Assembly (NCBI GenBank): GCA_023150835.1
Contig: JAKLKB010000017.1
Span: 1-64,000, forward strand
Reading direction: 5' to 3'
DNA: 64,000 nt
Origin: Myxococcota bacterium
GTDB lineage: Bacteria; Myxococcota_C; UBA6777
Each line of letters opens with the position of its first letter. Position 1 is the stretch's first letter. Positions 3,843-29,904 of the stretch are shown in pieces. The position numbers were made by a program, and so were the translations under genes. The notes under the pieces were generated by a model. That model worked only from the letters and a program-made list of their open reading frames with translations, searched no databases and had not been told where the DNA came from.

Positions 3843-5249
3843 AGGGATGGTCACAAGGCAGCGGGTGAGCGGGTTCACGATATCTTTTTGTACATAGAGA
3901 TAGTATTTTTTGCCCGATTCAAGGGGCTTTGGCTTTCCTTCGGCAGGGAAGCGTTGCGCGACTCCTTCGGGCACCACACCGTAGGTCACACTTCCCGATT
4001 CAAGGGGCTTTCCTTGCTTCCAATCGACATCAATGCGCCAAAGTGTTCCTTTCGGTGTATCGAGATTTGGCGGAACCCCGGGAGAAGATGCGGTGGCCTC
4101 CATCACATGGATATAACGCGCCGCACCGCCAATCCAATAAAGCTTTCCATCCGCAGCGATGCGTTGATCAGGCGTGCAGTCGGTCGGAACATAGAATCTT
4201 TGTGTATCTAACGGACCCGCGCCGTACTTTTCATCCTTGAAGTCTTCGCGTTTTTTTCCGCGATAAGCCAGTTCTGCTTCAAAAAAGCGACGCATCCGAG
4301 CATCATCTGTCGTTGGAAACGCCGTATGGTTGGTGTTTTCAGGAGTCGCCCGCGTGAAACCATTGTTCTTTTCCGCTGGAAATGCCCCAAATCCCACCGT
4401 GTCGATCCACCCCGCACCCATCGCCAAACCTCGCGGGCCAAAGCTATTGATCCAGTTCGGACCCGACTCAAGATACCAATTGGACGGACCTTGCGGGGCG
4501 TTGGTGGTATGACAACACACACACGCTGCGGCGCGGATCTGCGACTTGACCCATTCGTTTTCCTTGACATACGCGGGATCTTTGAGCCGCGCATCCTCGT
4601 CCTTGGCTGTGCTGTTTGGAGGAACCGGATAATACGGACGTTGCGTGCGTACCATATCACAGCTACCATAATCCTCGAATTTTCGGCCTTCTTCTGTTGC
4701 CCCTGAGATCGCAGACCATGTACAAACTTGACCGTTGGGGCCTTTGCCGGGCGGTTCTCCTGCCTTCGGTGCTTTGCAGACATACTCTGGTTGTTGGAAG
4801 ATCGGCAAGGTTCCTGTCGGCCCCGTCGTCTTTCCGCCACAGACGGACGTGGGAACGAAGCTTCCGCCTCCAAAAAATTCACATCCCCGTTGTACCGAGC
4901 CACAACGCGAGCCGTCTTTGCCGGGTAGCTCGACACGGGCGTATTTGTCTTTTTCTTTGTCCACGATAAAGATGCAGTCGCCATAACGCTCACTGTCCGC
5001 TATCCCGCACTTCTTGTCGATCACGATGGCGCTGTTGTTGTTCTTGCAGTCGTTCGTTGCCTCGGTCGAAGTCCACCCGCCAAGGTATTCTTTGCACTCT
5101 TGCATCCCGCTAAAGGCGTTCTTGTAGATGCAATGCCCCACCACCTTTTCTGGCAACGGTGGGATCGGAAAACCACCACCACAGCCATACGGCCACAACA
5201 ACAACCCCCCCAAACCGACCACCCACAACCGCATCCATCCTTTACGCAT
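3840..5249 (-). CDS. Lipoprotein with a single CxxCH motif, paralogue 1
   Basis: The product is 469 aa. The start at 5249 is chosen because AAGGAG lies 7 bases upstream and it begins a lipoprotein signal (MRKGWMRLWVVGLGGLLLWP, lipobox Cys at about residue 24). An upstream in-frame start would add 42 non-signal residues. The mature protein has many paired Cys (HCIYKNAF, ECKEYLGGW, CDMVRTQRP). Near residue 240 it carries CVCCH, a canonical CxxCH haem-attachment pattern, followed by TTNAP. If used, the protein is a periplasmic or outer-membrane mono-haem lipoprotein. No haem axial partner or cytochrome fold could be assigned. It is about 60% or more similar to the next gene. Tandem 44-bp repeats run into its stop codon. 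Confidence 0.82.
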   Translation of the reverse strand: MRKGWMRLWVVGLGGLLLWPYGCGGGFPIPPLPEKVVGHCIYKNAFSGMQECKEYLGGWTSTEATNDCKNNNSAIVIDKKCGIADSERYGDCIFIVDKEKDKYARVELPGKDGSRCGSVQRGCEFFGGGSFVPTSVCGGKTTGPTGTLPIFQQPEYVCKAPKAGEPPGKGPNGQVCTWSAISGATEEGRKFEDYGSCDMVRTQRPYYPVPPNSTAKDEDARLKDPAYVKENEWVKSQIRAAACVCCHTTNAPQGPSNWYLESGPNWINSFGPRGLAMGAGWIDTVGFGAFPAEKNNGFTRATPENTNHTAFPTTDDARMRRFFEAELAYRGKKREDFKDEKYGAGPLDTQRFYVPTDCTPDQRIAADGKLYWIGGAARYIHVMEATASSPGVPPNLDTPKGTLWRIDVDWKQGKPLESGSVTYGVVPEGVAQRFPAEGKPKPLESGKKYYLYVQKDIVNPLTRCLVTIP

Positions 5250-8128: not shown

Positions 8129-11100
8129 TTAAGGTGTTGTTTGAAGAGGAAACTCGGCTTTGAAAGGGATGCCAGAAGGCGGATTTTTGGGATCAAAGCC
8201 AAGGACACCGCCGAGGGTTTCGAGCGCTCCTTTGCGATCAAAGCCCGCAAGTTGGATCAAGGCGTTGACAAGGTCATCGACGGACATTTTTCCTTGCATG
8301 GTGAGCTTGCCTTGAAGGTCGATGGATGCGGCATCTGCGCGCAAGACGACTTCGGAGAGTGTGATCGAGAGAGCGCGTTGTCCAGTCGCAGGATCGGGGA
8401 CGGGCATCGTGATCTGGGTGGGTTCGCTCTCAAAGCCTTGTGCATCGGCTTTGATGGGGATCGCGACGATATCGGAAAACAACGGTTGGCCGTCTTTGTT
8501 GAGATCAGGACCGAGCACGATCAACGGCTTTTCACCATCGATCTTTGCCCATTGCAAGATCGGAAGAAGGGTGCGGAGGGTGGTTTTGGCGAGTCCATTG
8601 TCGGGTTCGATCAAGTTGAGTTTGCCCGAAGGTGTCGTGGCGCGGCGCATCGAGCGAACGACGCCACCTTGGATCTCGATATCACGGCCATCGGCACGCA
8701 TCGTTCCGCTGATCGGCCAGTATCCGGGATCTTTGCCAAGTTCGATCCGAGTCATGCTTGGATCGATACGCTGCGTACCGATCTGTAGGGTTGTGGAAAG
8801 ACCCTGTACTTTGGGCCATGCGATCGAGACAGCTTCGTTTGGAGAAGCAAAGGTCGGCGTGATCTTGAGAGCATACGGATCGTCGCCTTTGCCCGAAAGA
8901 AGGGCCTCGACTTGATCGTGGCGATTGTTCCAATAGGTCATCAGTCGGGTTTTGGTATGCACTCGCCAAGGGTAGGTGGTGCCGTTTGGGACGGCTGTTT
9001 CGGGGGTAAGGCCGCCTCCGTGTACTTGGGCCGCAGGGTAGCGATAGCTTTTTTCGCGGCGTCGGATCACCATTTCTGCCGATTGAAGGGCTTGTTTGGC
9101 TTGATCAAATGTTGCCTTGGCTTCGGCTTGTGGATCTTTTTGCGGTGCGGTTGGGTCGATCTTTCGGGCGTTTTCGTTGGCGATCTGCGTTTCTCGCCAG
9201 ACGATCACGGCTTGGTACAACAAGCGGGCTTGGCGAGCGCGTAGCTGATTGATCTCGATGCCGTCGATCGTTTCATCAAGCCAAGGTCGCCCTGTATCGG
9301 GGACTTGCGCTTGGATGGTTTGGAGGCGTTTGAGAAAGCCTCCGTGCGCCTCTTCGATGGCTTGAAGAGCCGCGATATCGGTCTCTTTGAAGTGCTTGAT
9401 CTGTTTTTCGTTCCAACGCGAGACTTCACGGAAAGCCACACGCACAGGACGAAACACAAAGCCCGAAACAGCGGCGATCTCGTCTGCGGGATCTTCGCCC
9501 GCAAAGTACGCATACAATCCCCCTGCTGTTCCTTGCCAGTCTTTGCGAGCCAAGAAGGAGTCTTTTTGGTGCTCCATCAGCTTGAGCATCACGTCGATGC
9601 CTTCGGTGCGTGCGACACATCCGCTTTTCCACTCGCTCGGTTTGCACAACGGATCCATCAACTCACCCACCGCTTCTTTGAGCGTGGTATCGGCCTTCCA
9701 ATGCCAAAGGCCCACCGCATAGTCTTGTTGCCAATACCCCCATTCATGGCCCGAATTAAACATCCGATGTGCATCGAGTGTCCCACCGCCACGCGTTTTG
9801 AGCAGCGGGCGGATCAGCTCGATATCGCGCCCTCGTCCCCACAGATACAGCGGCAAGTACACAGGGATCGGATTGTCGAAACTCAACCACCACGAGCCTT
9901 CGGGAAAGTATTCAAGGATACGCCCTTGCGATGAGGCTTTTTGCATCAGGCAAAGTTTGTGTGAAAAAGTCTTTTGATTGTACACCATGGCCGGTCCTTC
10001 GAGCGGATAGAACATCACCGTATGGACTTTGACGCCAAAGCGCTTGTCTGTGTGAAAGGCCAGATCGTAATAATCGACGCGCCCGTTGCTGTTGGTTCCT
10101 GAAGGACAACCGAGGTCGTCAAAGTTGGGCATCGCCTGTCCTCCTGTGGTGTGGTCGTTGATCATCACGCGGATGTCAGGGCGGATCGAGAGGGCTTTTT
10201 GGCCTGCCCAGTTGATCCAGTCGATGGTTTCTTTGTCAGGAGTTGTGGTGAACTCTGTCGGACCAAAGTGGATGCCAAATTCGTCGGCGTCAGGGACTTC
10301 TTGGAGGCGTTTGGCGACGTAGGTTTCGATCTGTTCTTTGACAGGCACCGCGCTTTTGCGATCCACGACGCCTGTGGAGCCTTGTTGTTCGTTGTGCAAC
10401 GTGATCCCTGCACCGCGTGGAAAACCAAGCGATATCCGCAGTTCTTCTAACTCTTTGACGCGCTTTTCTCGGGCCTCCGCAGGAGCCACACCACGCCCTG
10501 CACCGCGAAACTTGTTGCCCCGATTTTTGATGATCCAGTCGTTGACTCGGGCGGCTTCGTCGATGGGGTGGCGTCCATCAGAAAAGGCTTCTTGGTGTTC
10601 GAGCGGGTGTGATCCGTGAAAAGTGTAAGAGCGAAACAGAAAGTCACCTTTGTAGAGATCGGAGGGCTTACCGTCTTTGTCGGTGTGTGCGATGGCTGTA
10701 GGTGTTTTGGCGCGCTCGCGTAGCTGCCCAAGATCGTTGCGCGGAAGGAACTCTTGTTCGGGGTGGTAGAATCGCGCTCCCATGCGTCGAAGAAACTCAT
10801 AAACCGCGTATTGTCGGCCCAGTTTGGAGGGAGAGGCGGTATACACGACGGTGGCTCCTTCGCTGCCGAGGCGATTTCCCCAGTCTCCGTGATCTTTGTG
10901 CGTCAACCAAAAGCCGTCTGCACCCGCCTCTTTGAGCTTCTCTTCCTGAATGATATCGGAGGCCAGCTTGTGCGCATCCAATACTAGCACCAATCCTGCG
11001 CGTTGTTTGGCCGCTGCGTCGAGGATGGCTGGATGTTGGGTGCTTTCGAGCCGGACAACGTGCGGTTTGGAGCCCGCAAGGGCGAGGATGTATGCGTCCA

Positions 11101-11245
11101 TCGCCCCAAGCAAACGGTTATCCAATGGATCTTCCGCCTTTTGCAAGACAATCATCACCCCGCCCGCTTCGAGCGTTGGAGTCGTTTTGCAGTGGAGAAA
11201 AAGCGAGCATACGCAAAAAAACCCGAACCATCGAAAGAATCGCAT
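8129..11245 (-). CDS. Large lipoprotein with DUF4838/GH67-like domain
   Basis: The product is 1038 aa from the ATG at 11245, which begins a lipoprotein signal (MRFFRWFGFFCVCSLFLH, then CKTTP). The segment GRQYAVYEFLRRMGARFYHP near residue 165 matches the small alpha/beta domain preceding the catalytic barrel in alpha-glucuronidase-like and DUF4838 proteins. The region from about 200 to 600 reads like the matching TIM barrel (EFGIHFGPTEFTTTPD, INWAGQKALSIRPDIRVMIN, LEYFPEGSWWLSFDNPIP). Residues 620-760 are helical. The C-terminal 270 residues are strand-rich and not recognised. The family suggests an exported carbohydrate-active enzyme, but catalytic residues could not be confirmed. It has no obvious operon partner; a beta-helix lipoprotein lies 153 bp downstream. 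Confidence 0.82.
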   Translation of the reverse strand: MRFFRWFGFFCVCSLFLHCKTTPTLEAGGVMIVLQKAEDPLDNRLLGAMDAYILALAGSKPHVVRLESTQHPAILDAAAKQRAGLVLVLDAHKLASDIIQEEKLKEAGADGFWLTHKDHGDWGNRLGSEGATVVYTASPSKLGRQYAVYEFLRRMGARFYHPEQEFLPRNDLGQLRERAKTPTAIAHTDKDGKPSDLYKGDFLFRSYTFHGSHPLEHQEAFSDGRHPIDEAARVNDWIIKNRGNKFRGAGRGVAPAEAREKRVKELEELRISLGFPRGAGITLHNEQQGSTGVVDRKSAVPVKEQIETYVAKRLQEVPDADEFGIHFGPTEFTTTPDKETIDWINWAGQKALSIRPDIRVMINDHTTGGQAMPNFDDLGCPSGTNSNGRVDYYDLAFHTDKRFGVKVHTVMFYPLEGPAMVYNQKTFSHKLCLMQKASSQGRILEYFPEGSWWLSFDNPIPVYLPLYLWGRGRDIELIRPLLKTRGGGTLDAHRMFNSGHEWGYWQQDYAVGLWHWKADTTLKEAVGELMDPLCKPSEWKSGCVARTEGIDVMLKLMEHQKDSFLARKDWQGTAGGLYAYFAGEDPADEIAAVSGFVFRPVRVAFREVSRWNEKQIKHFKETDIAALQAIEEAHGGFLKRLQTIQAQVPDTGRPWLDETIDGIEINQLRARQARLLYQAVIVWRETQIANENARKIDPTAPQKDPQAEAKATFDQAKQALQSAEMVIRRREKSYRYPAAQVHGGGLTPETAVPNGTTYPWRVHTKTRLMTYWNNRHDQVEALLSGKGDDPYALKITPTFASPNEAVSIAWPKVQGLSTTLQIGTQRIDPSMTRIELGKDPGYWPISGTMRADGRDIEIQGGVVRSMRRATTPSGKLNLIEPDNGLAKTTLRTLLPILQWAKIDGEKPLIVLGPDLNKDGQPLFSDIVAIPIKADAQGFESEPTQITMPVPDPATGQRALSITLSEVVLRADAASIDLQGKLTMQGKMSVDDLVNALIQLAGFDRKGALETLGGVLGFDPKNPPSGIPFKAEFPLQTTP

Positions 11246-11436
11246 CGATGTCTCAAGCTTGTTTTCAAGCAACCCGACTTGGCGCTTGAAAGGGAGGCAG
11301 TCACGGCTTTTTTTCAATGGCGTCGCTCCTATGCAAAACACGGCAGATTGGGACAAAAACAAGACCCAAATCTCGAAAGAACCGCTATTTTAGGCCAAGA
11401 CAAGTTTTTTTCCAATAGGAGTGGTGCAGTTGTCCC

Positions 11437-12136: not shown

Positions 12137-13207
12137 GTGTCTCATTCTTCTCCCGTTGCTGCGCCTCGATCGACTTCTCATCGGCGTGCGGTGGTGTTGT
12201 TTTGGTTGGGTGTGTTGATCGCAGCGGTGATGTTGTTTTGGAGCTTGCGCGGGGTGGCGTGGGTGGACTTGCACAAGGCGCTACTGGGGGCGAAGTGGCG
12301 GTGGTTGCTTGTGGCGTTGGGATTGATGGCGTGTTCGATGGGGATGCGAGCGTTGCGGTGGGCTACGTTGTTTCCTCCTTCGTTGGGGTTGAGTGGGCGG
12401 AGCGTCTTTGCGCCGATGATGGTGGGGTATTTGTTTAACCTGCTTTTGCCCGGGCGGATGGGGGAGTTGGTGCGTTCGGTGGCGTTGGCGAAACAAACGC
12501 AAAAGCCGGCGAGCGGGATCTTGGCGACGATCGTGGTGGAGCGTTTGGTGGATGCGCTGCTGATGGTGTTGTTTGCGGTGGTGTGGTGGGTGAATTTTCG
12601 GCCTGAGTTTTCGGGGGGAGCGGGGATCGGGATCTTGGCGGTGGGGTTGGTGGGTGTGTTGTGTGCATTGGTCGTGATCCGGGCCGAAGTGGCGTGGGTG
12701 GATCGGTTGCTGCGGTCCATCCTACGGGTCTTTCCAACGAAGTTGAGCGAACTGGTCTGGCGGTTGTATCTGCATTTTCGGGAGGGGCTGCGCTCGATGG
12801 CCGATGCTCGGCAGTTTGGGCGATTTTTGGGGATCACACTCTTGATCTGGAGTGTCGAGTGGGTGACCTTGTCGTGCTTGTTGTGGACCTTTTCGCTCTC
12901 GTTGAAACCTTTGGAAGTGGCGTTTTTGTTGGCGGCGGTCGCGCTTGGAAGTGCGATCTTGCCTGCCCCCGGGCAAGTCGGAACCTTTCAGTTTTTTGCG
13001 ATCCAAGCCGCGATGATCTTGGGCGTGCAAAAGACCACAGCTACGGGGTTTGCGTTGATTTGGCATGCCGCAGTGTTTTCGACGCTTGCGCTGTTGGGAG
13101 TGGGAGCGTTGTTGTGGTTGCGGCAGCGTTGGGCCAGATGGATGTGGTCGTTGGATATCTCGGAGAATCCGACGGATGTGGAAAAAAATAGCCACACCAC
13201 CGCTTGA
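12137..13207 (+). CDS. Lysylphosphatidylglycerol-synthase-type (UPF0104) membrane protein
   Basis: The product is 356 aa with a GTG start at 12137, preceded by GGAG at 12124. It has about eight membrane helices. The conserved family segment GYLFNLLLPGRMGELVRSVA is near residues 97-116, followed by IVVERLVDALLMVLF and, in the second half, AILPAPGQVGTFQFF. These are the hallmarks of the PF03706 family: the membrane half of MprF-like lysyl-PG synthases and stand-alone relatives, some of which flip or build lipid-linked products. No acyltransferase or synthase domain is fused here, so substrate and reaction are unknown. It is preceded by a small ORF and followed by the twin globin lipoproteins. 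Confidence 0.9.
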   Translation: MSHSSPVAAPRSTSHRRAVVLFWLGVLIAAVMLFWSLRGVAWVDLHKALLGAKWRWLLVALGLMACSMGMRALRWATLFPPSLGLSGRSVFAPMMVGYLFNLLLPGRMGELVRSVALAKQTQKPASGILATIVVERLVDALLMVLFAVVWWVNFRPEFSGGAGIGILAVGLVGVLCALVVIRAEVAWVDRLLRSILRVFPTKLSELVWRLYLHFREGLRSMADARQFGRFLGITLLIWSVEWVTLSCLLWTFSLSLKPLEVAFLLAAVALGSAILPAPGQVGTFQFFAIQAAMILGVQKTTATGFALIWHAAVFSTLALLGVGALLWLRQRWARWMWSLDISENPTDVEKNSHTTA

Positions 13208-13270: not shown

Positions 13271-13310
13271 CAAAAAAACCGTGTTCGCGTTCGTTCAAGC
13301 GGCGCAGGTG
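13271..13310 (-). repeat. Fragment of the dispersed intergenic element
   Basis: AAAAAAACCGTGTTCGCG and TTCAAGCGGCG match the end segment of the minus-oriented copies; the hairpin half is absent. It lies in the 166-bp leader of the first globin lipoprotein gene. Confidence 0.6.
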
Positions 13311-13373
13311 TTCGCGTCAACGGCATCTTGATGAATCGTTTTCATTACTATTTTGTGGAGAGGAGTCCAATAC

Positions 13374-14456
13374 ATGACCAAATCCCCTTTCTTTCAAACG
13401 CTTCTTGCGAAGAGCATCCCCTTGGTGGCGGCCTTGTTTCTCGTAAGCCTGTGGGCTACAGGTTGCCCCGCACCTACAAACAACGAGCAAGCCACCGAAA
13501 CGACCACCGAAAAAGTGGCCGACGGCAGCACCGAATCGACCCCTGAAGCCACCGCAGAAAAACAAGTCGAAGCCACCCCTGAAACCCAAGCCGAAGCTAC
13601 CCCCGAAACCCAAGCCGAAGCCACCCCCGAAACCCAAGCCGAAGCCACCCCCGAAGCTACGGGCTCTTTGTATCAGCGCCTTGGTGAAGAAGCTGGCATC
13701 CAAAAGGTCGTGGGGGATTTTGTCAACCGTGTCGTCGCGGATAGCAAGATCAACGGCTATTTCTTGAACAGCACCGTCGATGGTCAGCGCTTCACAGGCT
13801 GTTTGTTCAAACAAATCGGCCAAGCCACGGGCGGTCCACAAAAATACGATTGCAAAGGCATGAAAGAAACCCACCAAGGGATGGGCATTTCCAAGCAAGA
13901 CTTTACGGATCTGGTCGGTCATCTCGTTGATTCCCTTAAAGACGCCAAAGTCGCGCAAGCTGATATCGACGCCGTCGTTGCTGTTCTCGCTCCGATGGAA
14001 AAAGATATCGTTGAAGATGCCGACAACAACAAGACTTTTTACCAACGTGTCGGGCGCCGTCCCGGCATCGAAGTGGTGCTCAATTTATTTCTTGTGCGCG
14101 TTGTAAAAGACACCACCGTCAGCACTTTCTTTGCGAACGTCACCAACTCCGACCGTTTTTTGACTTGCTTTGCCCGCCTCGTCTGCAACGTTGACGGGCC
14201 TTGCCAATACGGGAAAGAGCCTGCCCTCGGTGAAAAAGGCGCTGATGACAAAAAGCCTTGCTTGCCCATGGCGGACGCCCACAAAGGTCTTGGGATCTCG
14301 CATCAAGACTTTACCACCGTCGTCGGCCATCTCGTCGATTCTCTGAAAGAAGCCAAAGTTGCACAAGCCGATATCGATGCCTTCTCCAAAGGCGTTGTTG
14401 GCACTGTGTGTCCTGATATCGTTGCCGTCGGAAAAGACCAATGCGCTAAGCCTTGA
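13374..14456 (+). CDS. Lipoprotein with two truncated-haemoglobin domains, copy 1
   Basis: The product is 360 aa. The start at 13374 follows GGAGAGGAGTCCAATAC and begins a lipoprotein signal with lipobox Cys 31 (LWATGC). The linker at about 35-98 contains TTTEKVADGSTESTPEA and four 8-residue ETQAEATP-type units (24-bp repeats). Two group-I truncated-haemoglobin-like domains follow, at about 99-210 and 220-345. Each opens with YQRLGEEAGIQKVV or YQRVGRRPGIEVVL and carries the proximal-His region (THQGMGISKQDF, His 167; AHKGLGISHQDF, His 303). Each domain also has an unusual Cys-containing insert. Extracytoplasmic lipidated globins could bind O2, NO or haem; the role is not known. It is tandem-duplicated with the next gene, including the upstream region. 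Confidence 0.9.
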   Translation: MTKSPFFQTLLAKSIPLVAALFLVSLWATGCPAPTNNEQATETTTEKVADGSTESTPEATAEKQVEATPETQAEATPETQAEATPETQAEATPEATGSLYQRLGEEAGIQKVVGDFVNRVVADSKINGYFLNSTVDGQRFTGCLFKQIGQATGGPQKYDCKGMKETHQGMGISKQDFTDLVGHLVDSLKDAKVAQADIDAVVAVLAPMEKDIVEDADNNKTFYQRVGRRPGIEVVLNLFLVRVVKDTTVSTFFANVTNSDRFLTCFARLVCNVDGPCQYGKEPALGEKGADDKKPCLPMADAHKGLGISHQDFTTVVGHLVDSLKEAKVAQADIDAFSKGVVGTVCPDIVAVGKDQCAKP

Positions 14457-14785
14457 TCTCATACAAACGCATGACGATCACGCTCGATCCTCCGATGCTT
14501 CCATCTTGCGCTTGTGGTGTACGGGGCTTGGCCCTCTTGCGGGGCTTGGCTGCCCGCCCCATCATCGAGCCAGCCCGTGTTTTTCCCGATCGGTTGCGTA
14601 CACTCCCGTCTCTTTGAGATGGCGCACAAGAGGGAACCCGTCACAAGGGAACGTTGCGTGAGGGCAACTGTGAAGGAAAGACTTGGGCAGGAGAATTCTT
14701 CGCGTGAGGCGAAGGATATCGAAAACGTTCGCGTGAACGGCATCTTGATGAATCGTCTTCTTTTTTGTGGAGAGGAATCCAGCAC
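14457..14785 (+). promoter_or_regulatory. Intergenic region with duplicated leader of the globin genes
   Basis: Positions 14727-14785 repeat the leader of the first globin gene (13310-13373): GTTCGCGT.AACGGCATC, TTGATGAATCGT, then TTTTGTGGAGAGGA before the ATG. The rest (14457-14726) is GC-rich, with CGGGGCTTGGC repeats and an inverted GTGTACG...CGTACAC pair, and has no gene I can support. Any promoter would have been duplicated with the gene; I cannot place -35 and -10 boxes. Confidence 0.55.
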
Positions 14786-15844
14786 ATGACCAAACCCCCT
14801 TTCTTTCAAACGTTTTTTGCGAAGATCATCCCCTTGGTGGCGGCCTTGTTTCTCGTAAGCCTGTGGTCCACAGGTTGCCCCGCACCTACAAACAACGAGC
14901 AAGCCACCGAAACAACCACCGAAAAAGTGGCCGACGGCAGCACCGAATCGACCCCTGAAGCCACCGCAGAAAAACAAGCCGAAGCCACCCCCGAAACCCA
15001 AGCCGAGGCTACCCCCGAAACCCAAGTCGAAGCCACCCCCGAAGCTACGGGCTCTTTGTACCAACGCCTTGGTGAAGAAGCCGGCATCCAGAAGGTGGTG
15101 GGGAATTTTGTGGAGCGAGTGGTCAAAGATACCAAGATCAACGGCTATTTCTTGAACAGCACTCTTGATAGCACGCGCTTTACAGGCTGTTTGGTCAAAC
15201 AAATCGGCCAAGCCACGGGCGGCCCGCAAAAATACGATTGCAAAGGCATGAAAGAAACCCACCAAGGGATGGGGGTTTCCAAACAAGACTTTACGGATCT
15301 GGTCGGCCATCTCGTCGATGCTCTCAAAGAGGCCAAAGTTGCACAAGCTGATATCGACGCCATCGCTGCTGTTCTCACTCCGATGGAAAAAGATATCGTC
15401 GAAGATGCCGACAACAACAAGACCTTTTACCAACGTGTTGGACGCCGCCCCGCCATCGAAGTGGTGATCGCTGACTTTCTCAAGCGCGTCTTGGCAGACA
15501 CCACCATCAGCACTTTCTTCGCAAACACCCTCAACACCACCCGCCTGAATACTTGTCTTGTGCGCCTCGTCTGCAACGTCGACGGGCCTTGCCAATACGG
15601 GAAAGAACCTTCCTTTGGTGAGCTGGGACCCGACGACAAAAAGCCTTGTTTGAGCATGGCAAACGCCCACAAAGGTCTCGGGATCTCGCATCAAGACTTT
15701 ACCACCTTGGTCGGCCATCTCGTCGATGCCCTCAAGGCCGCCAAAGTCGCACAAGCTGATATCGATTCCTTCTCCAAAGGCGTCGTTGGCACCGTCTGTC
15801 CTGATATCGTTGAAGTCGGAAAAGACCAGTGCGCCAAGCCTTGA
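14786..15844 (+). CDS. Lipoprotein with two truncated-haemoglobin domains, copy 2
   Basis: The product is 352 aa and nearly identical in plan to copy 1. It has a lipoprotein signal with lipobox LWSTGC (Cys 31), the same TTTEKVADGSTESTPEA linker but one fewer ETQAEATP unit, then two globin-like domains with predicted proximal histidines at 159 (THQGMGVSKQDF) and 295 (AHKGLGISHQDF). The N-terminal signal and first domain are the most conserved. The second domain has diverged (IADFLKRVLADTTIST against LNLFLVRVVKDTTVST), which argues for retention of two functional copies. The start follows GGAGAGGAATCCAGCAC, homologous to the leader of copy 1. Confidence 0.9.
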   Translation: MTKPPFFQTFFAKIIPLVAALFLVSLWSTGCPAPTNNEQATETTTEKVADGSTESTPEATAEKQAEATPETQAEATPETQVEATPEATGSLYQRLGEEAGIQKVVGNFVERVVKDTKINGYFLNSTLDSTRFTGCLVKQIGQATGGPQKYDCKGMKETHQGMGVSKQDFTDLVGHLVDALKEAKVAQADIDAIAAVLTPMEKDIVEDADNNKTFYQRVGRRPAIEVVIADFLKRVLADTTISTFFANTLNTTRLNTCLVRLVCNVDGPCQYGKEPSFGELGPDDKKPCLSMANAHKGLGISHQDFTTLVGHLVDALKAAKVAQADIDSFSKGVVGTVCPDIVEVGKDQCAKP

Positions 15845-15868
15845 TCTAAACCACTCCCAACGGTTTTG

Positions 15869-17014
15869 ATGTTTCTCTCTTCTGCGGTCTACTCCTTGCC
15901 TACCTCGCTTCTGTGGCTTTCTTCTTCATGGTTTGCTGTTCTTTCCTTGCCGGAAACGATGTTCTCCCTCCATCGTTCGCGCCGAGAGAGCTTGCTTTTG
16001 GGGTGTTTGATGAGTTCCTCGATATCCCGTACCCTTGCTTTTGTTTGTTTGTTTGGGGGTCTGCTGAGCGCGTCTTGGTACAGCATACGCGGCTATCGCG
16101 CTTGGCAACGCCGCCAAGCGTTGTCGAAGCCGTGGGTGCATGCTTTTCAAGAGCCTGATTTGAAGCTGCCCAAAACACCGCGCCTCCGAGTCTTTGGAAT
16201 GTTTGTTGGAGAATCCTCTTTGGCCGAAGCACAGGCTTTTACGCAAGCGCAGCGTTTCGTATGCCAAGACAACTCTGTTCGTGCCCTGATGCGTCGACAA
16301 CGCGCTGCTCGTGTTGAAAAGTTGCGCGCTCAAGGCAAGATCGACGCTCTCTCTGGCGCGACGTGGAATCGCCCCAGCCCCCGCGAACGCAACCCCTCGA
16401 TCCGTTGGAATTGTGAAAAAGTCCTCGCTTCCCAATGGGCAGATCTCCCCCGACCCACCAAGGTTTGGGGCCGTTTGCTTTATGTCTTCGATAGCCCCCA
16501 ACATCCTTTGCGCCACGCCTCCTTTCAATACGATCTGCACCCTTCCAAGGCGCTTTCCGCCTTCCGCTCGGTCGTTTCGTACTACCAAACCCGCTTGGGC
16601 GCCCCCTCCCTCTCCAAAGACGATCGTCCTATCCCACTCTCCAAAGACGATCCCCCTCTTGCCCGAACCCTCAACCCCATAAATGCCCCGCCGCCTCGGC
16701 CTTCTTCTCAACCGACCGCCTCGGTTTCGGCTTCTCGGCCTGCCTCTTTGGTCTCCGTTTCTCGATCTGCTCCGATCGTTGCGGTCCCTTCGGCTTTTTC
16801 TGCTCCCCATAACGCAATGCTCCGACCTTCCTCAGACCCCGACTGGCTGGCTCAAACCCGCAAGTATGATCGCTTCCGTCGGGTATGGCGCTTCTCTGGG
16901 CTTCGCGTCCAGATCACGCTGCGCAGTTTTGGCGGATGGTTCAATCTCTCCGAAAGCATCGAAGTCCCTTGGCCGATCCGCCCTGATGCGCCTTTTGTTT
17001 CTCGAAAAAAATAG
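15869..17014 (+). CDS. Hypothetical membrane-anchored protein, Ser/Pro-rich
   Basis: The start is uncertain. The ATG at 15869 gives 381 aa, but an ATG at 16009 would begin MSSSISRTLAFVCLFGGLLS, a convincing signal-anchor, and is an equally good choice. After the helix the protein is Arg/Lys-rich (residues about 70-170). It has a strand-rich part with WGRLLYVFDSP and a Ser/Pro-rich linker (about 245-320, PPRPSSQPTASVSASRPAS), and ends in WRFSGLRVQITLRSFGGWFN. I recognise no family. It starts 24 bp after the second globin gene, so it may be co-transcribed with it. Its 3' end faces the efflux operon across one dispersed repeat. Confidence 0.62.
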   Translation: MFLSSAVYSLPTSLLWLSSSWFAVLSLPETMFSLHRSRRESLLLGCLMSSSISRTLAFVCLFGGLLSASWYSIRGYRAWQRRQALSKPWVHAFQEPDLKLPKTPRLRVFGMFVGESSLAEAQAFTQAQRFVCQDNSVRALMRRQRAARVEKLRAQGKIDALSGATWNRPSPRERNPSIRWNCEKVLASQWADLPRPTKVWGRLLYVFDSPQHPLRHASFQYDLHPSKALSAFRSVVSYYQTRLGAPSLSKDDRPIPLSKDDPPLARTLNPINAPPPRPSSQPTASVSASRPASLVSVSRSAPIVAVPSAFSAPHNAMLRPSSDPDWLAQTRKYDRFRRVWRFSGLRVQITLRSFGGWFNLSESIEVPWPIRPDAPFVSRKK

Positions 17015-17176: not shown

Positions 17177-20100
17177 TCACAAGGGCTTACCTTGGAGGGC
17201 GATCAGGCGGGCGTGTTGGGTCAAGAGCGCGATATCGAGGCGCTGCGATTGTAGGCGGATGGAGAGGTAGCGTTTGAGATGTCCGAGAAGGTTGGAGAAA
17301 TCTTCTTTGCCGACTTGGTAGCTTGCGAGTGAAGCTTGGTAGGTCTGGAGGGCGAGCGGCAGGAGTTGTGTGTTGGTAAGCTGCTGTTGTTCTCGGAGAT
17401 TGCGGGACTCTTGGAAGGTATCGCTCAGTTGTTGGCGCAGATCAGAGAGCAGCTCGCGTAGGCGTTTTTGCGCCGTGACAAAACGGGCGGTGGCTTCTTC
17501 GGCGAGACCTTGACGTGCGCTGTTTCCCCACGTCGGCAGCGGAATCTGGATGCCAAACGACAGAAACGGCTCGCCTTGATCCGCGCTGTTTTCAAAGCGT
17601 TGCTGGATCGTCAAGCGCAACATGATCTCAGGCCAGTATTGGGCTTGTGCGAGATCTTTGAGCTGTTTGGCTTGTAGCGCGTCGCTGTGCCAATACCGCA
17701 GCATCGGTCGTGATCGAAGCACTTCTTCCCACGCGACCGCTTGGTCTTTTGGAAAAACCATCGGTAGCTTCAGCGCCCTTGCCCATCGAGCAAGCAGAAG
17801 ATTCGATGTGACGGGCTGCGTCGCTACTTGGGTCTCGGACAGGACTGATGCTCCGATGGTTGAAGCCGTTGGGTTGAAAGCAGCGGCGGTCGGTGGGGTG
17901 ATGGTGGAAGAGGCGGTGGTTCGGGCAGATGGAACGGCGGCGGTGGAAGAGGCGGTGGTTCGGGCAGATGGAGCGGCGGCGGTGGAAGAGGCGGTGGTTC
18001 GGGCAGATGGGGCGGCGGCGGTGGAAGAGGCGGTGGTTTGGGAATATCGGGCGGCGGTGGAAGCGGCGGTGGTTCGGGCAGATGGGGCGGCGGCGGTGGA
18101 AGCGGCGGTGGTTTGGGAATATCGGGCGGTTGTGCTGGGAGCAGGCGAGGTGAGGCGTTGGATTTGAAGAAGTCTTCGTTGGGCTTGTCGTTGGATTTGA
18201 AGGGCTTCTTGTTGGAGTTGTGCGAGTTGGAGCAGAGCGAGCAGGAGGTCTTGTTTGCGAGAGGTGGAGGCGGCGTATCGGGTGCGTGCGACGGCAGCGA
18301 TCTGTTGGGTGATCTGGTAAAGTTCGCGGCGCAAGTGCCATTGGAGGCGGAGATCGAACAGGGCCAAGAGATGCTCGCGTAGCTCGTAGGCGATCTTGGT
18401 TTGGCTTTCTTGCAACAAGAAATGGAGTTTGTGAAGTTCGGCTTGTGCGATGGCTTTTTGCGCTGCAAGACGCCCAAGTATCGGGAACTTTTGGCCGATG
18501 GAGTATTGGATGCCCGTCATCATGTTGGGGCGGAAGTTGGGCAGAGGGAAGTTGTTGGCTTGGATGCCGATCTCCAGATCAGGCCAAGCACCCGCTTGTT
18601 TGATGCGCGCAGCAGCCACCGCAAATTGCGAGCGGATGCGTTGAAGTGTGGGGTTGTGGCTCGCCGTTTGGGCCCAAAGGTCGGCGAACGTCGGCAACGC
18701 AACGAATACACGAGGCGGTGTTGGAAATGGCGCATCTTCGGGTTGAACAGACGCTGCTTGGAGCGAAGAGGGCCACCCAAGCCACAGCATCAACAGGGCA
18801 ACGGAGACGCTGGTTCGCAGGACAGGAGATGCAGCGGATAGTGCAGGGGCTTGTGTGTGGCGTCGGTATCTGCGCTCTTCGCGCCAACAGTAAAGGACGG
18901 GAACGAGAAAGAGTGTCAATAGCTCGATGAACATCCCGCCAAACGAAGGGATCGCCATCGGGATCATGATATCCGAGCCTCGGCCCGAAGAAGAAAGAAC
19001 GGGCAGAAGCGCAAGGAGGGTGGTTGCAGTAGTCATCAAGCAGGCGCGGATACGCCGTTGTCCCGCTGCTACGGTGATCTCGCGGATCTCGTCGATCGAT
19101 TGAGGGGCTTTGCTTTGGAAGGACTGATCGAGGTATGTGGCGATCACAACACCATCGTCTGAGGCGATGCCAAAAAGCGCGATAAACCCGACCCACACCG
19201 CGATGCTCATTTGGAAAGCTTGGATGTGGAAGACTTCGCGCATCGGTGCGCCAAACACCGAAAAATCAAGAAACCAAGGCTGTGCATACAGCCACAACAT
19301 CAAGAAGCCACCCGACCACGCCACCCCGATCCCTAGAAAAACAAACAGAGTTGTCGAGGTCTGGCGGAACTGGAGATAGAGCAGCAAGAAGATCAAAAAC
19401 AGAGAAAGTGGAAGGATCACCAGCAAACGCTTTTCGGCGCGGATCTGGTTTTGATAGGTTCCTGCAAAGACGTAACTCACACCCGCAGGGAGCTTCCATT
19501 GACCTGTGTCGCGTTGGGAGCGCAGGTAGGCTTGCGCTGCTTCGACCGTTTCGATCTCGCCGTAGCTTGGGTTGCGATCGAAGATCACATAGGCCACCAA
19601 GAACGTATCTTCGCTTTTGATCATCTGCGGGCCACGGGTATAACGGATCTGCGCGAGTTGAAATATCGGGATCTGCGTGCCTGTCGGAGAGGCGATCATG
19701 ATACGCCGGAGGGCGTCGGGGCTGTTGCGTAGTTCGCGTGGATACCGCAACACCACGTTATAACGCTCGCGCCCTTCGACGGTCGTCGTCACCTTCATCC
19801 CTCCGATGGCCATCTGGAGGGTGCGCTGAACGTCGGCGACTTGGAGTCCATAACGGGCGATGGCACGCCGATCGATGATGAATTCGAGATAAGGCTTACC
19901 GACCACGCGATCCGCGATCACCGTTGCAGGCGAGATCTGCGGCACTTTTTTCAAAAAGCCCTCGACCTGTAAGGCCACGCGCTCTAACGTCCGTAGATCA
20001 GGGGCTTTGATCTTGACGCCCATCGGTGCGCGCATCCCGCTTTGGAGCATCACGATCCGCGCACCGATCGGTTGTAGCAACGGGGCAGAGGTGGTTCCCG

Positions 20101-22768
20101 CAAGACGGGTGGCTTTGACGATCTCGTTCCAGATATCTTGAGGGGTGTGGATGTGTGGTCGCCATTGGCGGATGCGCTCGCCGTTTGGAAGTGTGCGATA
20201 TTTGGCTTTGTAATGGATCACATTTTCAAACATCGAGATCGGAGCGGGATCGATGGCGCTTTCGGCGCGTCCGAGTTTTCCGACCACTTGCTCGACTTCG
20301 GGGATCGCACGCACCGCGATATCCAGCTTTTTGAGCACATCCAACACTTCACCCATCGAAGCATGCGGCATCGTCGTTGGCATCAACAAAAACGAGCCTT
20401 CGTCGAGGTTGGGCATGAATTCTTTCTTGAGTCCGGGGAATATCTCATGGCGCAGACTTACCCACCAAGGATGCGAACGCAGCGTCTGTTCGGGCACACC
20501 AAGGCGCGCCATCGCCGACGGAAGCCAGCCAAATATCTGCTCAAACCCAAGCCACACGTTCGCACCAAACAGCACCAACATCAGCGGCATACTGAGAAAC
20601 AGCAGTTTGTGACGCAAGAAAAACCGCAGCAGCGACGCATAGAAGCGCTTGAAGATCTCAAAAAAGCCGATCAATCCGCTGATTAGGATGCCCACAAAGA
20701 TCGCGTTTCGCCAAAATCCCCGTTGTTCTTCGAGCGGCATCCAAGCCCTCGCCAGCCACAGCACCACCAAGACCGCGACCGCCCACTGACCGACTCGGTA
20801 GACGCGCTGCTTGCCTGCATCATCCAGAAACCGCAGCAACAGCCGCATCGCTCCATAGCCCACCACCAAAAGCCCCAACCAACGCCCCCATCCCACCGAA
20901 AGATATCGCACCAAACCCCACCCGCTCACCACAAACAACACGTCCACCAACACTCCCGCGAGCAGGGCGTTTCGCGGTGTTTTGTCTGATGTGGGCTGTT
21001 TCTTTTTCAACCACAACAACGCCAACGGCGGGATCAAGGTCAAAGCCACCACCAACGACGCAAACAGCGCAAAGGTCTTGGTCCACGCAAGCGGTCGAAA
21101 CAGCTTGCCTTCCGCAGCTTCCATCGTAAACACAGGCAAAAAGCTGACGATGGTGGTACTTACGGCGGTGAGTACAGCCCCTGCGACTTCGGAGGTGGCT
21201 TGGAAGACGGTGGTGAGGGGAGGTTCGTCGGGCGGAGCTTCCTCGAAGGATTGATAGATCTGCTCGCTCAAGACGATGCCCATATCCACCATCGTTCCGA
21301 TCGCGATGGCGATCCCCGAGAGGGCGACGATATTGGCATCCACCCCAAACTCTTTCATCGCGATAAAGCAGATCAACACCGCGATCGGCAGCGTTCCCGC
21401 GATCAAGAGCGCGCTGCGTAAGTGCATCAACATCAAGATCACCACGATGATCGTGATCAACACTTCCAGCGTGATGGCTTCTTCGAGTGTTCCGAGGGTT
21501 TCGTGGATCAGCTTGGAGCGGTCGTAGAAAGGAACGAGGGTTAGCTTCGAGATCCTTCCATCGCCGAGCTGTTTTTGCGGAAGGCCGAGCGATATCTCCT
21601 TGATCTTGGCTTTGATCTGCTGGATCACCGCGAGCGGATTCGCTCCATAACGGGCCACCACCACGCCGCCCACAGCTTCGGCTCCATCCTTGTCGAGCGC
21701 ACCGCGCCTTGGGGCCGGACCCATCGCGATCCGTGCGATATCTCGTAGATACAACGGCGCTCCCTGACGCGCTCGCACCACCACTTCCTCAAGATCCTGC
21801 ACCTTCTTGAGATATCCCCGCGCTCGGATCACATACTCCACACGATTGATCTCGATCGTTCGCGCTCCGATCTCTTGGTTCGAGGCTTGGACTGCCCGAT
21901 AGATCCCTTCAAGCGTTAAGCCGTAGACGCGGAGCTTTTCGGGATCCACATCGATCTGGTACTCTTGCACAAATCCCCCGATCGACGCCACTTCTGAAAC
22001 CCCCGCCACCGATTGAAGCGCATAACGCACATACCAATCCTGTACCTTTCGCAGCGTATGAAGATCCCAACCCCCCGCAGGTCGGCCCTTGGCGTCTCGA
22101 CCTTCGATCGTGTACCAAAAGATCTGCCCCAACCCCGTTGCATCGGGTCCAAGCACAGGCTTGGCATCGCTCGGAAGCGTGTTGTTGGGCAGACTGTTGA
22201 GCTTTTCGAGGATGCGCGAACGGCTGTCATAAAAGGCCGCTTTTTCTTCAAAGATCAAGTAGATCGTTGAAAAGCCAAAGTCTGAATAACTGCGGATCGT
22301 CTGTAGATGCGGAAGGCCCATCAAGGCCGTCGTCAGCGGATAGGTGATCTGATCTTCCACGTCTTGCGGTGAACGCCCTTCCCATCGGGTGAATACGATC
22401 TGTTGGTTCTCCCCAAGATCCGGCAGCGCATCCACCGCAACAGGATCCCGTGGTAGCCCCCCCAACCGCCAATCAAAGGGCGCAACATACGCCCCCCACG
22501 CCACAAACAACCACAACAACAACATCACCACCAGCTTGTTGTGCAAACAAAACGATATCATCGGATCCAACCAAGATCCCCCATACACGGGCGATCTTGA
22601 CGGCGACTTGTCCATCCCTGTGGCGGGGTTCAAAAAGTCTTGTTGTGTAGGTACGTCTTGCTGTGTAGGTAAGCCTTGCTGTGTAGCATGTGGGGGCTGT
22701 CCCCTGTGGCTGTCCAACGATGCAAAGTCTTGCTGTGTAGGTGAGCCGTCTGGGCGTTTCGGTGTCAT
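17177..22768 (-). CDS. cusA: CusA-type heavy-metal RND permease fused to a TolC-type outer-membrane factor
   Basis: The product is 1863 aa. The start at 22768 is chosen because its ATG overlaps the cusB stop as ATGA. Residues 1-72 are a Gln/Thr/Pro-rich extension. About 73-1295 are a CusA/CzcA-like RND pump, with DALPDLGENQ, the TM4 motif GTMVDMGIVLSEQIYQS, and a second half ending FLVPVLYCWREERR. Between the two RND halves are several extra predicted helices. About 1310-1335 resemble an internal signal peptide (SVALLMLWLGWPSSLQA). From there to the end is an outer-membrane efflux protein (LWAQTASHNPTLQRIRSQ, IGQKFPILGRLAAQKA). A Ser/Thr/Ala repeat separates its two halves. Pump and outer-membrane channel would thus be made as one chain, possibly cleaved at the internal signal. 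Cu/Ag or Co/Zn/Cd export is a family inference. Confidence 0.9.
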   Translation of the reverse strand: MTPKRPDGSPTQQDFASLDSHRGQPPHATQQGLPTQQDVPTQQDFLNPATGMDKSPSRSPVYGGSWLDPMISFCLHNKLVVMLLLWLFVAWGAYVAPFDWRLGGLPRDPVAVDALPDLGENQQIVFTRWEGRSPQDVEDQITYPLTTALMGLPHLQTIRSYSDFGFSTIYLIFEEKAAFYDSRSRILEKLNSLPNNTLPSDAKPVLGPDATGLGQIFWYTIEGRDAKGRPAGGWDLHTLRKVQDWYVRYALQSVAGVSEVASIGGFVQEYQIDVDPEKLRVYGLTLEGIYRAVQASNQEIGARTIEINRVEYVIRARGYLKKVQDLEEVVVRARQGAPLYLRDIARIAMGPAPRRGALDKDGAEAVGGVVVARYGANPLAVIQQIKAKIKEISLGLPQKQLGDGRISKLTLVPFYDRSKLIHETLGTLEEAITLEVLITIIVVILMLMHLRSALLIAGTLPIAVLICFIAMKEFGVDANIVALSGIAIAIGTMVDMGIVLSEQIYQSFEEAPPDEPPLTTVFQATSEVAGAVLTAVSTTIVSFLPVFTMEAAEGKLFRPLAWTKTFALFASLVVALTLIPPLALLWLKKKQPTSDKTPRNALLAGVLVDVLFVVSGWGLVRYLSVGWGRWLGLLVVGYGAMRLLLRFLDDAGKQRVYRVGQWAVAVLVVLWLARAWMPLEEQRGFWRNAIFVGILISGLIGFFEIFKRFYASLLRFFLRHKLLFLSMPLMLVLFGANVWLGFEQIFGWLPSAMARLGVPEQTLRSHPWWVSLRHEIFPGLKKEFMPNLDEGSFLLMPTTMPHASMGEVLDVLKKLDIAVRAIPEVEQVVGKLGRAESAIDPAPISMFENVIHYKAKYRTLPNGERIRQWRPHIHTPQDIWNEIVKATRLAGTTSAPLLQPIGARIVMLQSGMRAPMGVKIKAPDLRTLERVALQVEGFLKKVPQISPATVIADRVVGKPYLEFIIDRRAIARYGLQVADVQRTLQMAIGGMKVTTTVEGRERYNVVLRYPRELRNSPDALRRIMIASPTGTQIPIFQLAQIRYTRGPQMIKSEDTFLVAYVIFDRNPSYGEIETVEAAQAYLRSQRDTGQWKLPAGVSYVFAGTYQNQIRAEKRLLVILPLSLFLIFLLLYLQFRQTSTTLFVFLGIGVAWSGGFLMLWLYAQPWFLDFSVFGAPMREVFHIQAFQMSIAVWVGFIALFGIASDDGVVIATYLDQSFQSKAPQSIDEIREITVAAGQRRIRACLMTTATTLLALLPVLSSSGRGSDIMIPMAIPSFGGMFIELLTLFLVPVLYCWREERRYRRHTQAPALSAASPVLRTSVSVALLMLWLGWPSSLQAASVQPEDAPFPTPPRVFVALPTFADLWAQTASHNPTLQRIRSQFAVAAARIKQAGAWPDLEIGIQANNFPLPNFRPNMMTGIQYSIGQKFPILGRLAAQKAIAQAELHKLHFLLQESQTKIAYELREHLLALFDLRLQWHLRRELYQITQQIAAVARTRYAASTSRKQDLLLALLQLAQLQQEALQIQRQAQRRLLQIQRLTSPAPSTTARYSQTTAASTAAAPSARTTAASTAARYSQTTASSTAAAPSARTTASSTAAAPSARTTASSTAAVPSARTTASSTITPPTAAAFNPTASTIGASVLSETQVATQPVTSNLLLARWARALKLPMVFPKDQAVAWEEVLRSRPMLRYWHSDALQAKQLKDLAQAQYWPEIMLRLTIQQRFENSADQGEPFLSFGIQIPLPTWGNSARQGLAEEATARFVTAQKRLRELLSDLRQQLSDTFQESRNLREQQQLTNTQLLPLALQTYQASLASYQVGKEDFSNLLGHLKRYLSIRLQSQRLDIALLTQHARLIALQGKPL
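17895..18135 (-). repeat. 39-bp intragenic tandem repeat encoding a Ser/Thr/Ala linker
   Basis: About six units of 39 bp encode SARTTASSTAAAP and variants (ARYSQTTAASTAA) in the outer-membrane-factor part of the efflux fusion. Purity of the DNA repeat indicates recent expansion. The reverse strand is Gly-rich and open, which produces spurious ORFs. Confidence 0.9.
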
Positions 22769-24780
22769 CGATCCACCCCATGTTTCCGATGTTTCGGACG
22801 ATGCGTCGGTGATGCTTCGATGCGGCGTTTCATCTCTCCGCAGCGCAGCATCTGTGCGCCAAAATAGGGGTTTAAGATGCCTTCTTGATCTTGGAGCCAC
22901 GAAGCGCCTGTATCTTGGAAGGCCATCGGGCAATAGGCGAGATAGACGGCTTGGGGGGCTTCATGCCCGATCGCTTCTTGAAGTTGGAGCACCGCTTTGG
23001 AGATCAGGTCGAAGCCTTGTCGAAGCGTTGCGATATCTTTGGGGGCGTATCGTTGGAAAGCATCGATCAATCGGGCGCGTAAAGCGTCCCATCTTGCGGC
23101 CTCGTCGCCTCGCAGCGGACGTGGTGTTTGAGCCAAGGCACGAAGCGCCTCCGCAGCCTTTTTCGATGCCTCGAACTGATCTGCCGCCAAAGCCCGCCAA
23201 AGAGCGAAATAATGGTTGTACAAGCGCGCTTGTTCTTTTCGTAAGGCTGCGCTGACCGTCTTTGTGGTGCGCGTGCCGCTTGGGTGATCCGCTTCTTTTG
23301 GTGGATCTTCCGCTGCTTTGGGCATCTGCATCATGCTCGGACGGGCTTGGATCTGTAGCTCGCTGTCTAGCTTGAAGGCTCCGTTGGAAACGACTTCTTC
23401 TCCCTCGCGCAATCCCCCAAGTACCACCGTATGGGTCTCTGTTCGCGGCCCAAGCTGGATCTCTCGACCCACGAACGTCCCCTCCGCTTTTCCCGGCTTT
23501 CGCACATACACGACCGCCCGCTTTCCTGTCCACAAGGCTGCTTCATTTGGGATCACCAACGGATCCAAGTGATCGATGTGTGTGGTTTTGACCGTCGACT
23601 GGCGTTCGAGGGGCATTCCACAGATCGAGCAATGGATACGGCGTGCGCTTGTGATCTCGGGGTGCATCGGGCAGATCCAACGCCCCAACGCAGCGGGAGG
23701 ACGGGCGTGTCCGTGTGCGTTCAATGCGATGTGCAATCGGCCATCCACAAACATCTCTGGTTTGAGCCGCCCGTGTGGGTTGGTGACGTTGGCGCGGATG
23801 CGGATGGTGCGTGTCGTCGGATTGAGCGTCGGGTCCACATACACGATCCGCCCCCGAAAGCGTTGATCTGGGGCGGCCATCGTTCCAAAATCCACCTCTT
23901 GTCCCACGCGAATCCTCGGCATATCCCGCTCGTACACATCGAACATCACCCATACTTCCGACAGATCCGCGATGGTATATAGCGGGCTTCCTGTCGTGAC
24001 GTACATCCCCTCCAAGGCTTTCTTCTCGATCACGATCCCGCCAAGCGGCGCGTACACGTTGATATGCGTCGAAGCTACCCGCTTTTGCTCGATCTGTTGG
24101 ATCTGCCATCCCTTCAATCCCATCAGTTCGAGCTTTTGACGCGCTGACTCAAGGCTGCCTTGGGCCGCCTGACGCAAGATCCCTTCTTGCCCTCGCAGCC
24201 GCTGTAAGGTTATCAACGCTTGCAAAAGCTCTTGTTGTGTCGCCAAAAGTTCCGGACTATACAGCCGCACAAGGTGATCTCCCTTTCGTACCCGCACGCC
24301 CGTATAATCTACAAACATCCGTTCCAATCGACCCGCCACCCATGCTGTGATCGTCTTGATCCGCGTCTCGTCATAAGCGATCCGCCCCGTCATCCGAATC
24401 GCTAGGCTCAAGGGCCGCCGTTGCACCGCGATCGTCTGGATATCCATCAGCGCCCTCGCCGACTTGGACAACTTCAACTCTCGCGGATCTTTCGCTTCCC
24501 CATCGCCTTGTTGCAGCGGGATCAGATCCATAAAGCAGATCGGGCATTTCCCTTTCTGCGGCAGTTTGAATTGTGGGTGCATCGAACACGTCCACGTTGT
24601 CGGCCTCTCCACTCCCACCGCTGTCTCAGCCTTTTGGCGCAGCACGTTTGGCGCAGGCGACCATAGGCTCCGAAACAACACCCCCAACAAAAACAACACC
24701 GCCCCGATCTTGACTTGTTTCACAAGGTTTTCCCACTTCGATCCAGAAGGCTCTGCCGGCGGATGCTCCGATGCGTTCAT
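22765..24780 (-). CDS. cusB: CusB-type periplasmic adaptor with two heavy-metal-binding domains
   Basis: The product is 671 aa; the ATG at 24780 has AAGGATAAATC upstream. One membrane anchor lies at about 25-41. A first Cys-His metal domain follows near 64-90 (CSMHPQ...CPICFMDL). The adaptor body has a barrel-sandwich and hairpin (KTITAWVAGRLERMFVDYTG, VYAPLGGIVIEKKALEGMYV) and a beta-barrel (VDPTLNPTTRTIRIRANV). A second Cys-His domain (CPMHPE...CSICGMPL) is inserted near 370-395. The C-terminal part (about 530-650) looks like DUF3347, with YLAYCPMAF and NPYFGAQMLRCGE. Its stop overlaps the permease start (ATGA), so translation is coupled. With the fused permease/outer-membrane factor it forms a complete tripartite metal exporter in two genes. 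Confidence 0.92.
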   Translation of the reverse strand: MNASEHPPAEPSGSKWENLVKQVKIGAVLFLLGVLFRSLWSPAPNVLRQKAETAVGVERPTTWTCSMHPQFKLPQKGKCPICFMDLIPLQQGDGEAKDPRELKLSKSARALMDIQTIAVQRRPLSLAIRMTGRIAYDETRIKTITAWVAGRLERMFVDYTGVRVRKGDHLVRLYSPELLATQQELLQALITLQRLRGQEGILRQAAQGSLESARQKLELMGLKGWQIQQIEQKRVASTHINVYAPLGGIVIEKKALEGMYVTTGSPLYTIADLSEVWVMFDVYERDMPRIRVGQEVDFGTMAAPDQRFRGRIVYVDPTLNPTTRTIRIRANVTNPHGRLKPEMFVDGRLHIALNAHGHARPPAALGRWICPMHPEITSARRIHCSICGMPLERQSTVKTTHIDHLDPLVIPNEAALWTGKRAVVYVRKPGKAEGTFVGREIQLGPRTETHTVVLGGLREGEEVVSNGAFKLDSELQIQARPSMMQMPKAAEDPPKEADHPSGTRTTKTVSAALRKEQARLYNHYFALWRALAADQFEASKKAAEALRALAQTPRPLRGDEAARWDALRARLIDAFQRYAPKDIATLRQGFDLISKAVLQLQEAIGHEAPQAVYLAYCPMAFQDTGASWLQDQEGILNPYFGAQMLRCGEMKRRIEASPTHRPKHRKHGVDR

Positions 24781-25130: not shown

Positions 25131-25153
25131 TCTGGATAGATCGGGGGGGAATC
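25131..25153 (-). repeat. Degenerate terminal CRISPR repeat (trailer end)
   Basis: CTGGATAGATCGGGGGG followed by a slightly altered end (GAATC for GAAC) matches one half of the array repeat. A spacer-sized gap of 33 bp separates it from the first intact repeat at 25187. Read on the minus strand it keeps the repeat's 5' half and loses the 3' half, typical of the leader-distal end of an array. Confidence 0.8.
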
Positions 25154-25186
25154 TTATGATGATAGCCTGTTTTTTTTTGTAGCAAG

Positions 25187-29880: not shown

Positions 29881-29904
29881 CCCAACAAGCCGCCCAACGT
29901 CGCG

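Follow-up and report, generated by a model that had tools for sequence, protein, structure and literature searches.

Tandem predicted lipoproteins with two group-1 truncated haemoglobin domains each in an uncultured Myxococcota-like bacterium

Within a 64,000-nucleotide stretch of DNA from an uncultured Myxococcota-like bacterium (hereafter the window), we identified two adjacent genes on the + strand, A and B, each encoding a predicted lipoprotein with two globin domains. Gene A (13374..14456) is an ORF of 360 aa preceded by an AGGAG at 13361-13365, and gene B (14786..15844) is an ORF of 352 aa preceded by an AGGA at 14772-14775; we take both to start at the ATG behind these motifs, the alternative TTG starts further upstream being less likely. 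All features of the pair given below likewise lie on the + strand. For context, the upstream neighbour is a membrane protein of the LPG_synthase_TM family (12137..13207, + strand; PF03706, E 1.1e-41) with a homologous ORF upstream in a same-genus MAG, and the downstream neighbour (15866..17014, + strand) has no Pfam match and a counterpart at 3390-4484 of the corresponding locus in that MAG (L073), beyond which a CusA-type efflux gene lies on the opposite strand. These neighbours suggest no pathway. Neither NO nor respiratory metabolism is represented among the genes adjoining A and B, and the stretches scanned beside them contained no recognisable cytochrome gene.

The window holds several further features that we record in their own right. 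The CusA-type gene belongs to a 1918-aa ORF (17177-22933) in which the metal efflux pump continues into an extended C-terminal region bearing a Ser/Thr/Ala repeat, and this region may be a fused outer-membrane factor; a 1077-aa lipoprotein-like ORF at 8129-11362 has no Pfam match and is conserved in the same-genus genome. A CRISPR array at 25132-29400 carries about 57 copies of GTTTCAAACCTTGTTTTGCTGGATAGATCGGGGGGAAC at a spacing of 72-75 nt and is accompanied by Cas8-like (TM1802), Cas7, Cas5 and Cas3 genes at 34054-40359, while a 42-nt tandem repeat with 8 registered copies (29496-29957) adjoins the array.

Self-comparison with blastn bore out, with the right coordinates, the proposal of a first-pass annotation that the gene and its leader have been duplicated, as positions 13310-14459 match 14727-15847 at 85.8% identity over a block that includes a leader of ~60 nt. 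The duplicated leader of gene A spans 13310..13373, its similarity to the B leader starting at 13310, and that of gene B spans 14727..14785 within the block. When both were aligned with same-genus leaders, the B leader continued to align further upstream, past the block, whereas the A leader did not, so that A looks like the added copy. We also asked whether the leader might be a regulatory repeat scattered through the genome, a reading ruled out by its presence at these globin genes only. At synonymous sites A and B have diverged by 0.38-0.47 within the domains but by 0.09 across signal and linker, a contrast suggestive of local gene conversion in the latter segment. The second domains had been described as diverging, and they do so faster than the first (A vs. 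B dN of 0.131 and 0.063, respectively); dN/dS lies near 0.11-0.18 for the first domain and near 0.26-0.28 for the second, which shows purifying selection on both, weaker on the second.

Export of both products, also part of that first description, agrees with a PROSITE-style lipobox pattern, W-[AS]-T-G-C, at residues 27-31 of A and B behind a hydrophobic stretch; Lys3, the hydrophobic core and W-[AST]-T-G-C are shared by A, B and the same-genus relative. The signal peptides comprise residues 1-30 in each case (A, 13374..13463, lipobox LWATG/C; B, 14786..14875, lipobox LWSTG/C), with the predicted lipid-modified Cys31 encoded at 13464-13466 and 14876-14878, and the assignment of A and B as predicted envelope lipoproteins anchored by lipid is well supported. 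Each signal peptide leads into a linker rich in Glu, Thr and Pro, and in A (13467..13664) also in Ala, which in both genes contains 24-nt tandem repeats found by Tandem Repeats Finder (13545-13655 in A; 14957-15043 within the B linker, 14879..15052). The repetitive character noted earlier thus stands, but it is ordinary for this organism: the signal-plus-linker segment is matched at 12 other loci of the focal genome, and the linker as a special feature is ruled out by how common similar linkers are across that genome.

Behind the linkers, the Bac_globin profile PF01152 matches each protein twice (whole-protein E of 3.9e-20 and 2e-23 for the two proteins), and all four domains score above its curated cut-off of 21 bits, in line with the two truncated-haemoglobin-like domains per protein claimed at first reading. 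In gene A, domain 1 (13665..14009, 49.6 bits) has Val at B10, Phe at E7, Leu at E11 and its HisF8 codon at 13872-13874, and domain 2 (14034..14453, 26.4 bits with the match ending at 14384) has Leu at B10, Phe at E7, Phe at E11 and HisF8 at 14280-14282. In gene B, domain 1 (15053..15397, 53.9 bits) repeats the Val, Phe and Leu of its counterpart with HisF8 at 15260-15262, and domain 2 (15422..15841, 33 bits with the match ending at 15772) has Leu at all three positions and HisF8 at 15668-15670. Both second domains carry an EF-loop insert and six cysteines, and every domain has a Cys at E10 and at F1, in B at residues 135 and 152 of domain 1 and 257 and 288 of domain 2. The proximal histidine expected in all four domains is therefore present, together with PheCD1, and HisF8 recurs in the tabulated relatives. 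Truncated haemoglobins are described as having AspB16 and GG motifs, one in the A-B turn and one closing helix E (PMC4720485); of these marks, AspB16 is found in all four domains, the A-B turn motif is reduced to a single Gly in all four, and the motif ending helix E is intact in domain 1 with one Gly left in domain 2. No NCBIfam family was assigned to either protein, and neither sequence has a CxxCH motif or a cytochrome match.

The closest solved relative by sequence is Mycobacterium tuberculosis HbN (E 6e-17), and structure prediction, put forward earlier as a check, agreed at the level of the fold. In haem-free AlphaFold (AF2) models built with relatives as the alignment, a two-domain construct reached a mean pLDDT of 74 and a pTM of 0.60; domain 1, from gene B, superposed on HbN (1s56_A) with Z 20.8 and an rmsd of 2.8 over 121 residues, and domain 2 of B, modelled alone at pLDDT 80, superposed on an HbN mutant (2gln_A) with Z 18.1 and an rmsd of 1.7 over 118. 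These models show the A and B domains as predicted group-1 (N) truncated haemoglobins with a 2/2 globin fold, which would hold haem b outside the cytoplasm, two haem-binding TrHbN domains being carried on a flexible linker from the lipid anchor. Such a fold might conceivably hold haem for its own sake rather than for gas, as a haem-scavenging or haem-carrying lipoprotein, given that haem-binding surface lipoproteins are common in Gram-negative bacteria and that a long linker carrying a buried haem site would suit the task. We regard this as very improbable: globins grip haem tightly and tend to retain it, and the scanned neighbours include no recognisable TonB receptor, haem oxygenase or haem ABC transporter.

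We then compared the haem pockets residue by residue. In HbN numbering, the four window domains have Val or Leu at position 33 (B10), Phe at 46 (CD1), Phe or Leu at 54 (E7), Leu or Phe at 58 (E11) and His at 81 (F8), so that the distal pocket is entirely apolar in all four, where HbN has Tyr33 and Gln58 instead. The distal-pocket residues, whose conservation the first-pass annotation had also named as a check, differ from those of HbN, as neither TyrB10 nor GlnE11, the pair associated with HbN-type NO dioxygenation, occurs in any of the four. Every tabulated relative with a lipobox or evident signal peptide has a non-Tyr B10, and TyrB10 is kept by HbN and most cytosolic group-1 relatives; some cytosolic ones are without it, including a second truncated globin paralogue of the focal genome. 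This paralogue (L003, G000:C56:16076-16384), apparently cytosolic itself, has Val at B10 and Glu at E11 and is conserved in the same genus.

Hydrophobic B10, E7 and E11 define the TrHbN-2 subgroup (PMC11904497) and mark a low-O2-affinity, fast-off class (PMC4720485; PMC11904497), and all four domains have them. Tight O2 binding or HbN-like NO dioxygenation by A and B is unlikely on these residues, because TyrB10 and GlnE11 are missing, and NO or CO binding or redox chemistry would fit the apolar pocket better than tight O2 binding. Lacking a distal hydrogen-bond donor, the ferrous haems would have a weak hold on O2 and a preference for NO (or CO); an apolar globin pocket in general favours NO over O2. 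Weak binding could also make A and B low-affinity proteins that bind or deliver O2 at the envelope, since truncated haemoglobins with hydrophobic pockets have been described as suited to O2 transport and storage (PMC11904497) and a membrane-tethered haem pair might raise local O2 for terminal oxidases. That use seems improbable to us, since an apolar exported pocket would be expected to autoxidise fast, two haems per chain would offer small capacity, and we know of no periplasmic reductase that would keep the haem ferrous.

A second distinguishing feature of the pocket is its cysteines. Cys57 (E10) and a Cys 7 residues before HisF8 (F1) occur together in 10 of 10 domains of five double proteins, plus a related fragment from a further genome (G085), and in no single-domain relative examined. 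As the domains that carry the pair form one group, we count its co-occurrence as one retained event rather than eleven. Single-domain lipoglobins often carry a different pair, at HbN positions 63 and 70, and domain 2 of both A and B combines the E10/F1 pair, the 63/70 pair and a C-terminal pair. The restriction of CysE10/CysF1 to double proteins and the related fragment implies either a disulfide or a Cys close to the haem iron; a disulfide would bridge the EF loop and so fasten the E helix to the beginning of helix F. A more elaborate reading is a redox-switched sensor, in which reduced CysE10 would ligate the haem iron and the E10-F1 disulfide would remove it, so that thiol state would gate ligand binding. 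In several trHbNs the residue at E10 serves as an internal ligand of the iron (PMC11904497), and in every double-protein domain it is a Cys strictly paired with CysF1; a permanent structural disulfide would, however, be simpler in an oxidising periplasm, and signalling domain and partner gene are both absent, which leaves this sensor a slim prospect. Little more probable, and still doubtful, is the broader idea of a distinct, Myxococcota-related family of di-haem globins anchored in the envelope, in which the pair beside each haem would act as a redox switch over both iron ligation and extracytoplasmic NO chemistry.

To place the pair among its relatives, we surveyed genomes and built domain trees. 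The same-genus MAG (Myxococcota bacterium KLAP109, CAUJFU010000475.1) has a single double-globin copy in the same neighbourhood, and two genomes of another family (G114 and G116) encode double proteins with 31-37% identity, both with a GEGEGE linker, the G114 protein with a lipobox and that of G116 cut at the contig start; in a third, G085, a matching fragment likewise lies at a contig start. Among 386 genomes sampled domain-wide, no further full double match was found outside the focal genus, a PQKYDCK/GMKETHQ scan of genome contigs matched the same-genus MAG alone (the focal genome possibly lying outside the scanned set), and a plasmid search met with group-1 trHbs only as partial matches of roughly 28-38% identity. 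The double layout is thus rare but not private to the focal locus. Single-domain lipoglobins with a lipobox, apolar pocket and HisF8 are common in Myxococcota. In trees of 30 domains whose deep branches are weak, the double-protein domains, with the G085 fragment inside, split from single-domain relatives at 96/93, and more tentatively at 86/91 with Cys masked, and they stand apart from the TyrB10/GlnE11 cytosolic group, in a set with no TrHbN-2 reference. Although the double-protein domains group together, first and second domains each fail to form one clade across lineages, which on these sequences would allow either one internal duplication or more.

The layout had at first been called unfamiliar, and this holds for the literature searched, which yielded neither the lipid-anchored double-globin arrangement nor the E10/F1 Cys signature; its presence in one sister genome and in two distant genomes, and the abundance of one-domain lipoglobins in Myxococcota, take away part of that novelty. 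Nor did we find a report of lipidated bacterial truncated globins in the full-text literature searched, a scope outside which most subscription papers fall. The fold, the subgroup and exported trHb domains (in cable bacteria) are already known, and the lipidated double layout and E10/F1 Cys signature seem new and are rare among the genomes sampled.

Genomic associations of the relatives bear on what the haems might do. In nine genomes of one Myxococcota family (L032-L038, L048, L054), the gene immediately after a single-domain lipoglobin encodes a YceI-dihaem cytochrome c fusion (53-83% identity to two partner queries), and in two more genomes (L065, L067) this gene lies one or two genes off. 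The pairing in these nine genomes speaks for the suggestion that electrons would reach the di-haem globin from a periplasmic c-type cytochrome; against it stands the absence of a close homologue of that partner from the focal genome. The same pair, conserved in Myxococcota, also speaks for a periplasmic O2-reducing or redox globin whose haems would take c-type cytochrome electrons and reduce O2 or peroxide, as has been proposed for cable bacteria periplasmic trHbs with one or two trHb domains (PMC11976967; PMC12093952). This published precedent of periplasmic trHbs with cytochromes is why we place such a role second, after NO handling, though we still consider it unlikely: a close homologue of the YceI-cytochrome c partner is missing from the focal genome, haem-copper oxidases are already there, and the pocket offers no polar distal residue for O2 or peroxide activation.

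The focal genome does encode a candidate source of NO. A cluster on another contig than A and B (L108, G000:C53:9000-18000, and G000:C53:3496-8952) contains cytochrome cd1 homologues (best E 2.3e-115), a siroheme decarboxylase/NirDL-like protein, a cytochrome c, a haem-copper oxidase subunit I, a NorQ/CbbQ-type ATPase, a VWA protein and an Rrf2 regulator, and is probably a nitrite/NO reductase cluster; no NCBIfam model assigns the haem-copper subunit as NorB, and NO reductase is a probable reading from the gene set. Periplasmic NO is expected in the focal organism because its genome carries this cluster, and cytochrome cd1 homologues also occur in the same-genus genome. The link is phylogenetically inconsistent, as the other two double-globin genomes, G114 and G116, gave no cytochrome cd1 match, and a further genome, G002, has a cd1 match but no lipoglobin.

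Collectively, we tentatively favour A and B as envelope-anchored di-haem TrHbN proteins engaged in NO (or O2) chemistry, which would bind or process NO at the membrane and so buffer NO from the cell's own cd1-type nitrite reductase, a role that would follow from weak O2 binding and the NO preference of the apolar pocket. The architecture is well supported, and the function is one that we infer. Most studied bacterial truncated globins have been treated as cytoplasmic, and in the lineage of A and B the domain is predicted to occur twice per chain and to be exported on a lipid anchor, its apolar pocket combined with cysteines near the haem. If this is borne out, one may ask what haem globins do with NO or O2 in the cell envelope of bacteria, a question beside the periplasmic proposal for cable bacteria, and the single-domain lipoglobin/YceI-cytochrome c gene pair offers a tractable system in Myxococcota relatives.

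Several known systems resemble A and B in part. TrHbN-2 proteins, such as Shewanella benthica HbN, share the 2/2 globin fold, HisF8, hydrophobic B10/E7/E11 and a favoured Phe at CD1, but the published protein is single-domain and was studied as a soluble one, whereas A and B have two domains, a lipoprotein signal, CysE10 and CysF1, and an EF-loop insert in domain 2. M. tuberculosis HbN (TrHbN-1), the nearest solved relative by both sequence and fold, is an NO dioxygenase whose B10 and E11 residues are Tyr and Gln, positions at which A and B are apolar, like the engineered TyrB10Phe/GlnE11Val mutant (2gl3). The Myxococcota single-domain lipoglobins are likewise predicted to be exported group-1 trHbs, with the same lipobox, apolar pocket and HisF8, but have one domain, Cys at 63/70 rather than E10/F1, and, in nine genomes, the YceI-dihaem cytochrome c gene next to them. 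Cable bacteria lPHCtX proteins (PMC11976967) are also exported and also carry trHb domains, one or two of them, but these are fused to a multihaem (pentahaem) cytochrome, while A and B consist of globin domains and a lipid anchor only. Finally, Ascaris suum perienteric haemoglobin is an extracellular two-domain globin chain with a proposed NO-consuming role (PMC1457004), but it is eukaryotic, octameric and of very high O2 affinity, and we claim homology with it no further than the globin superfamily.
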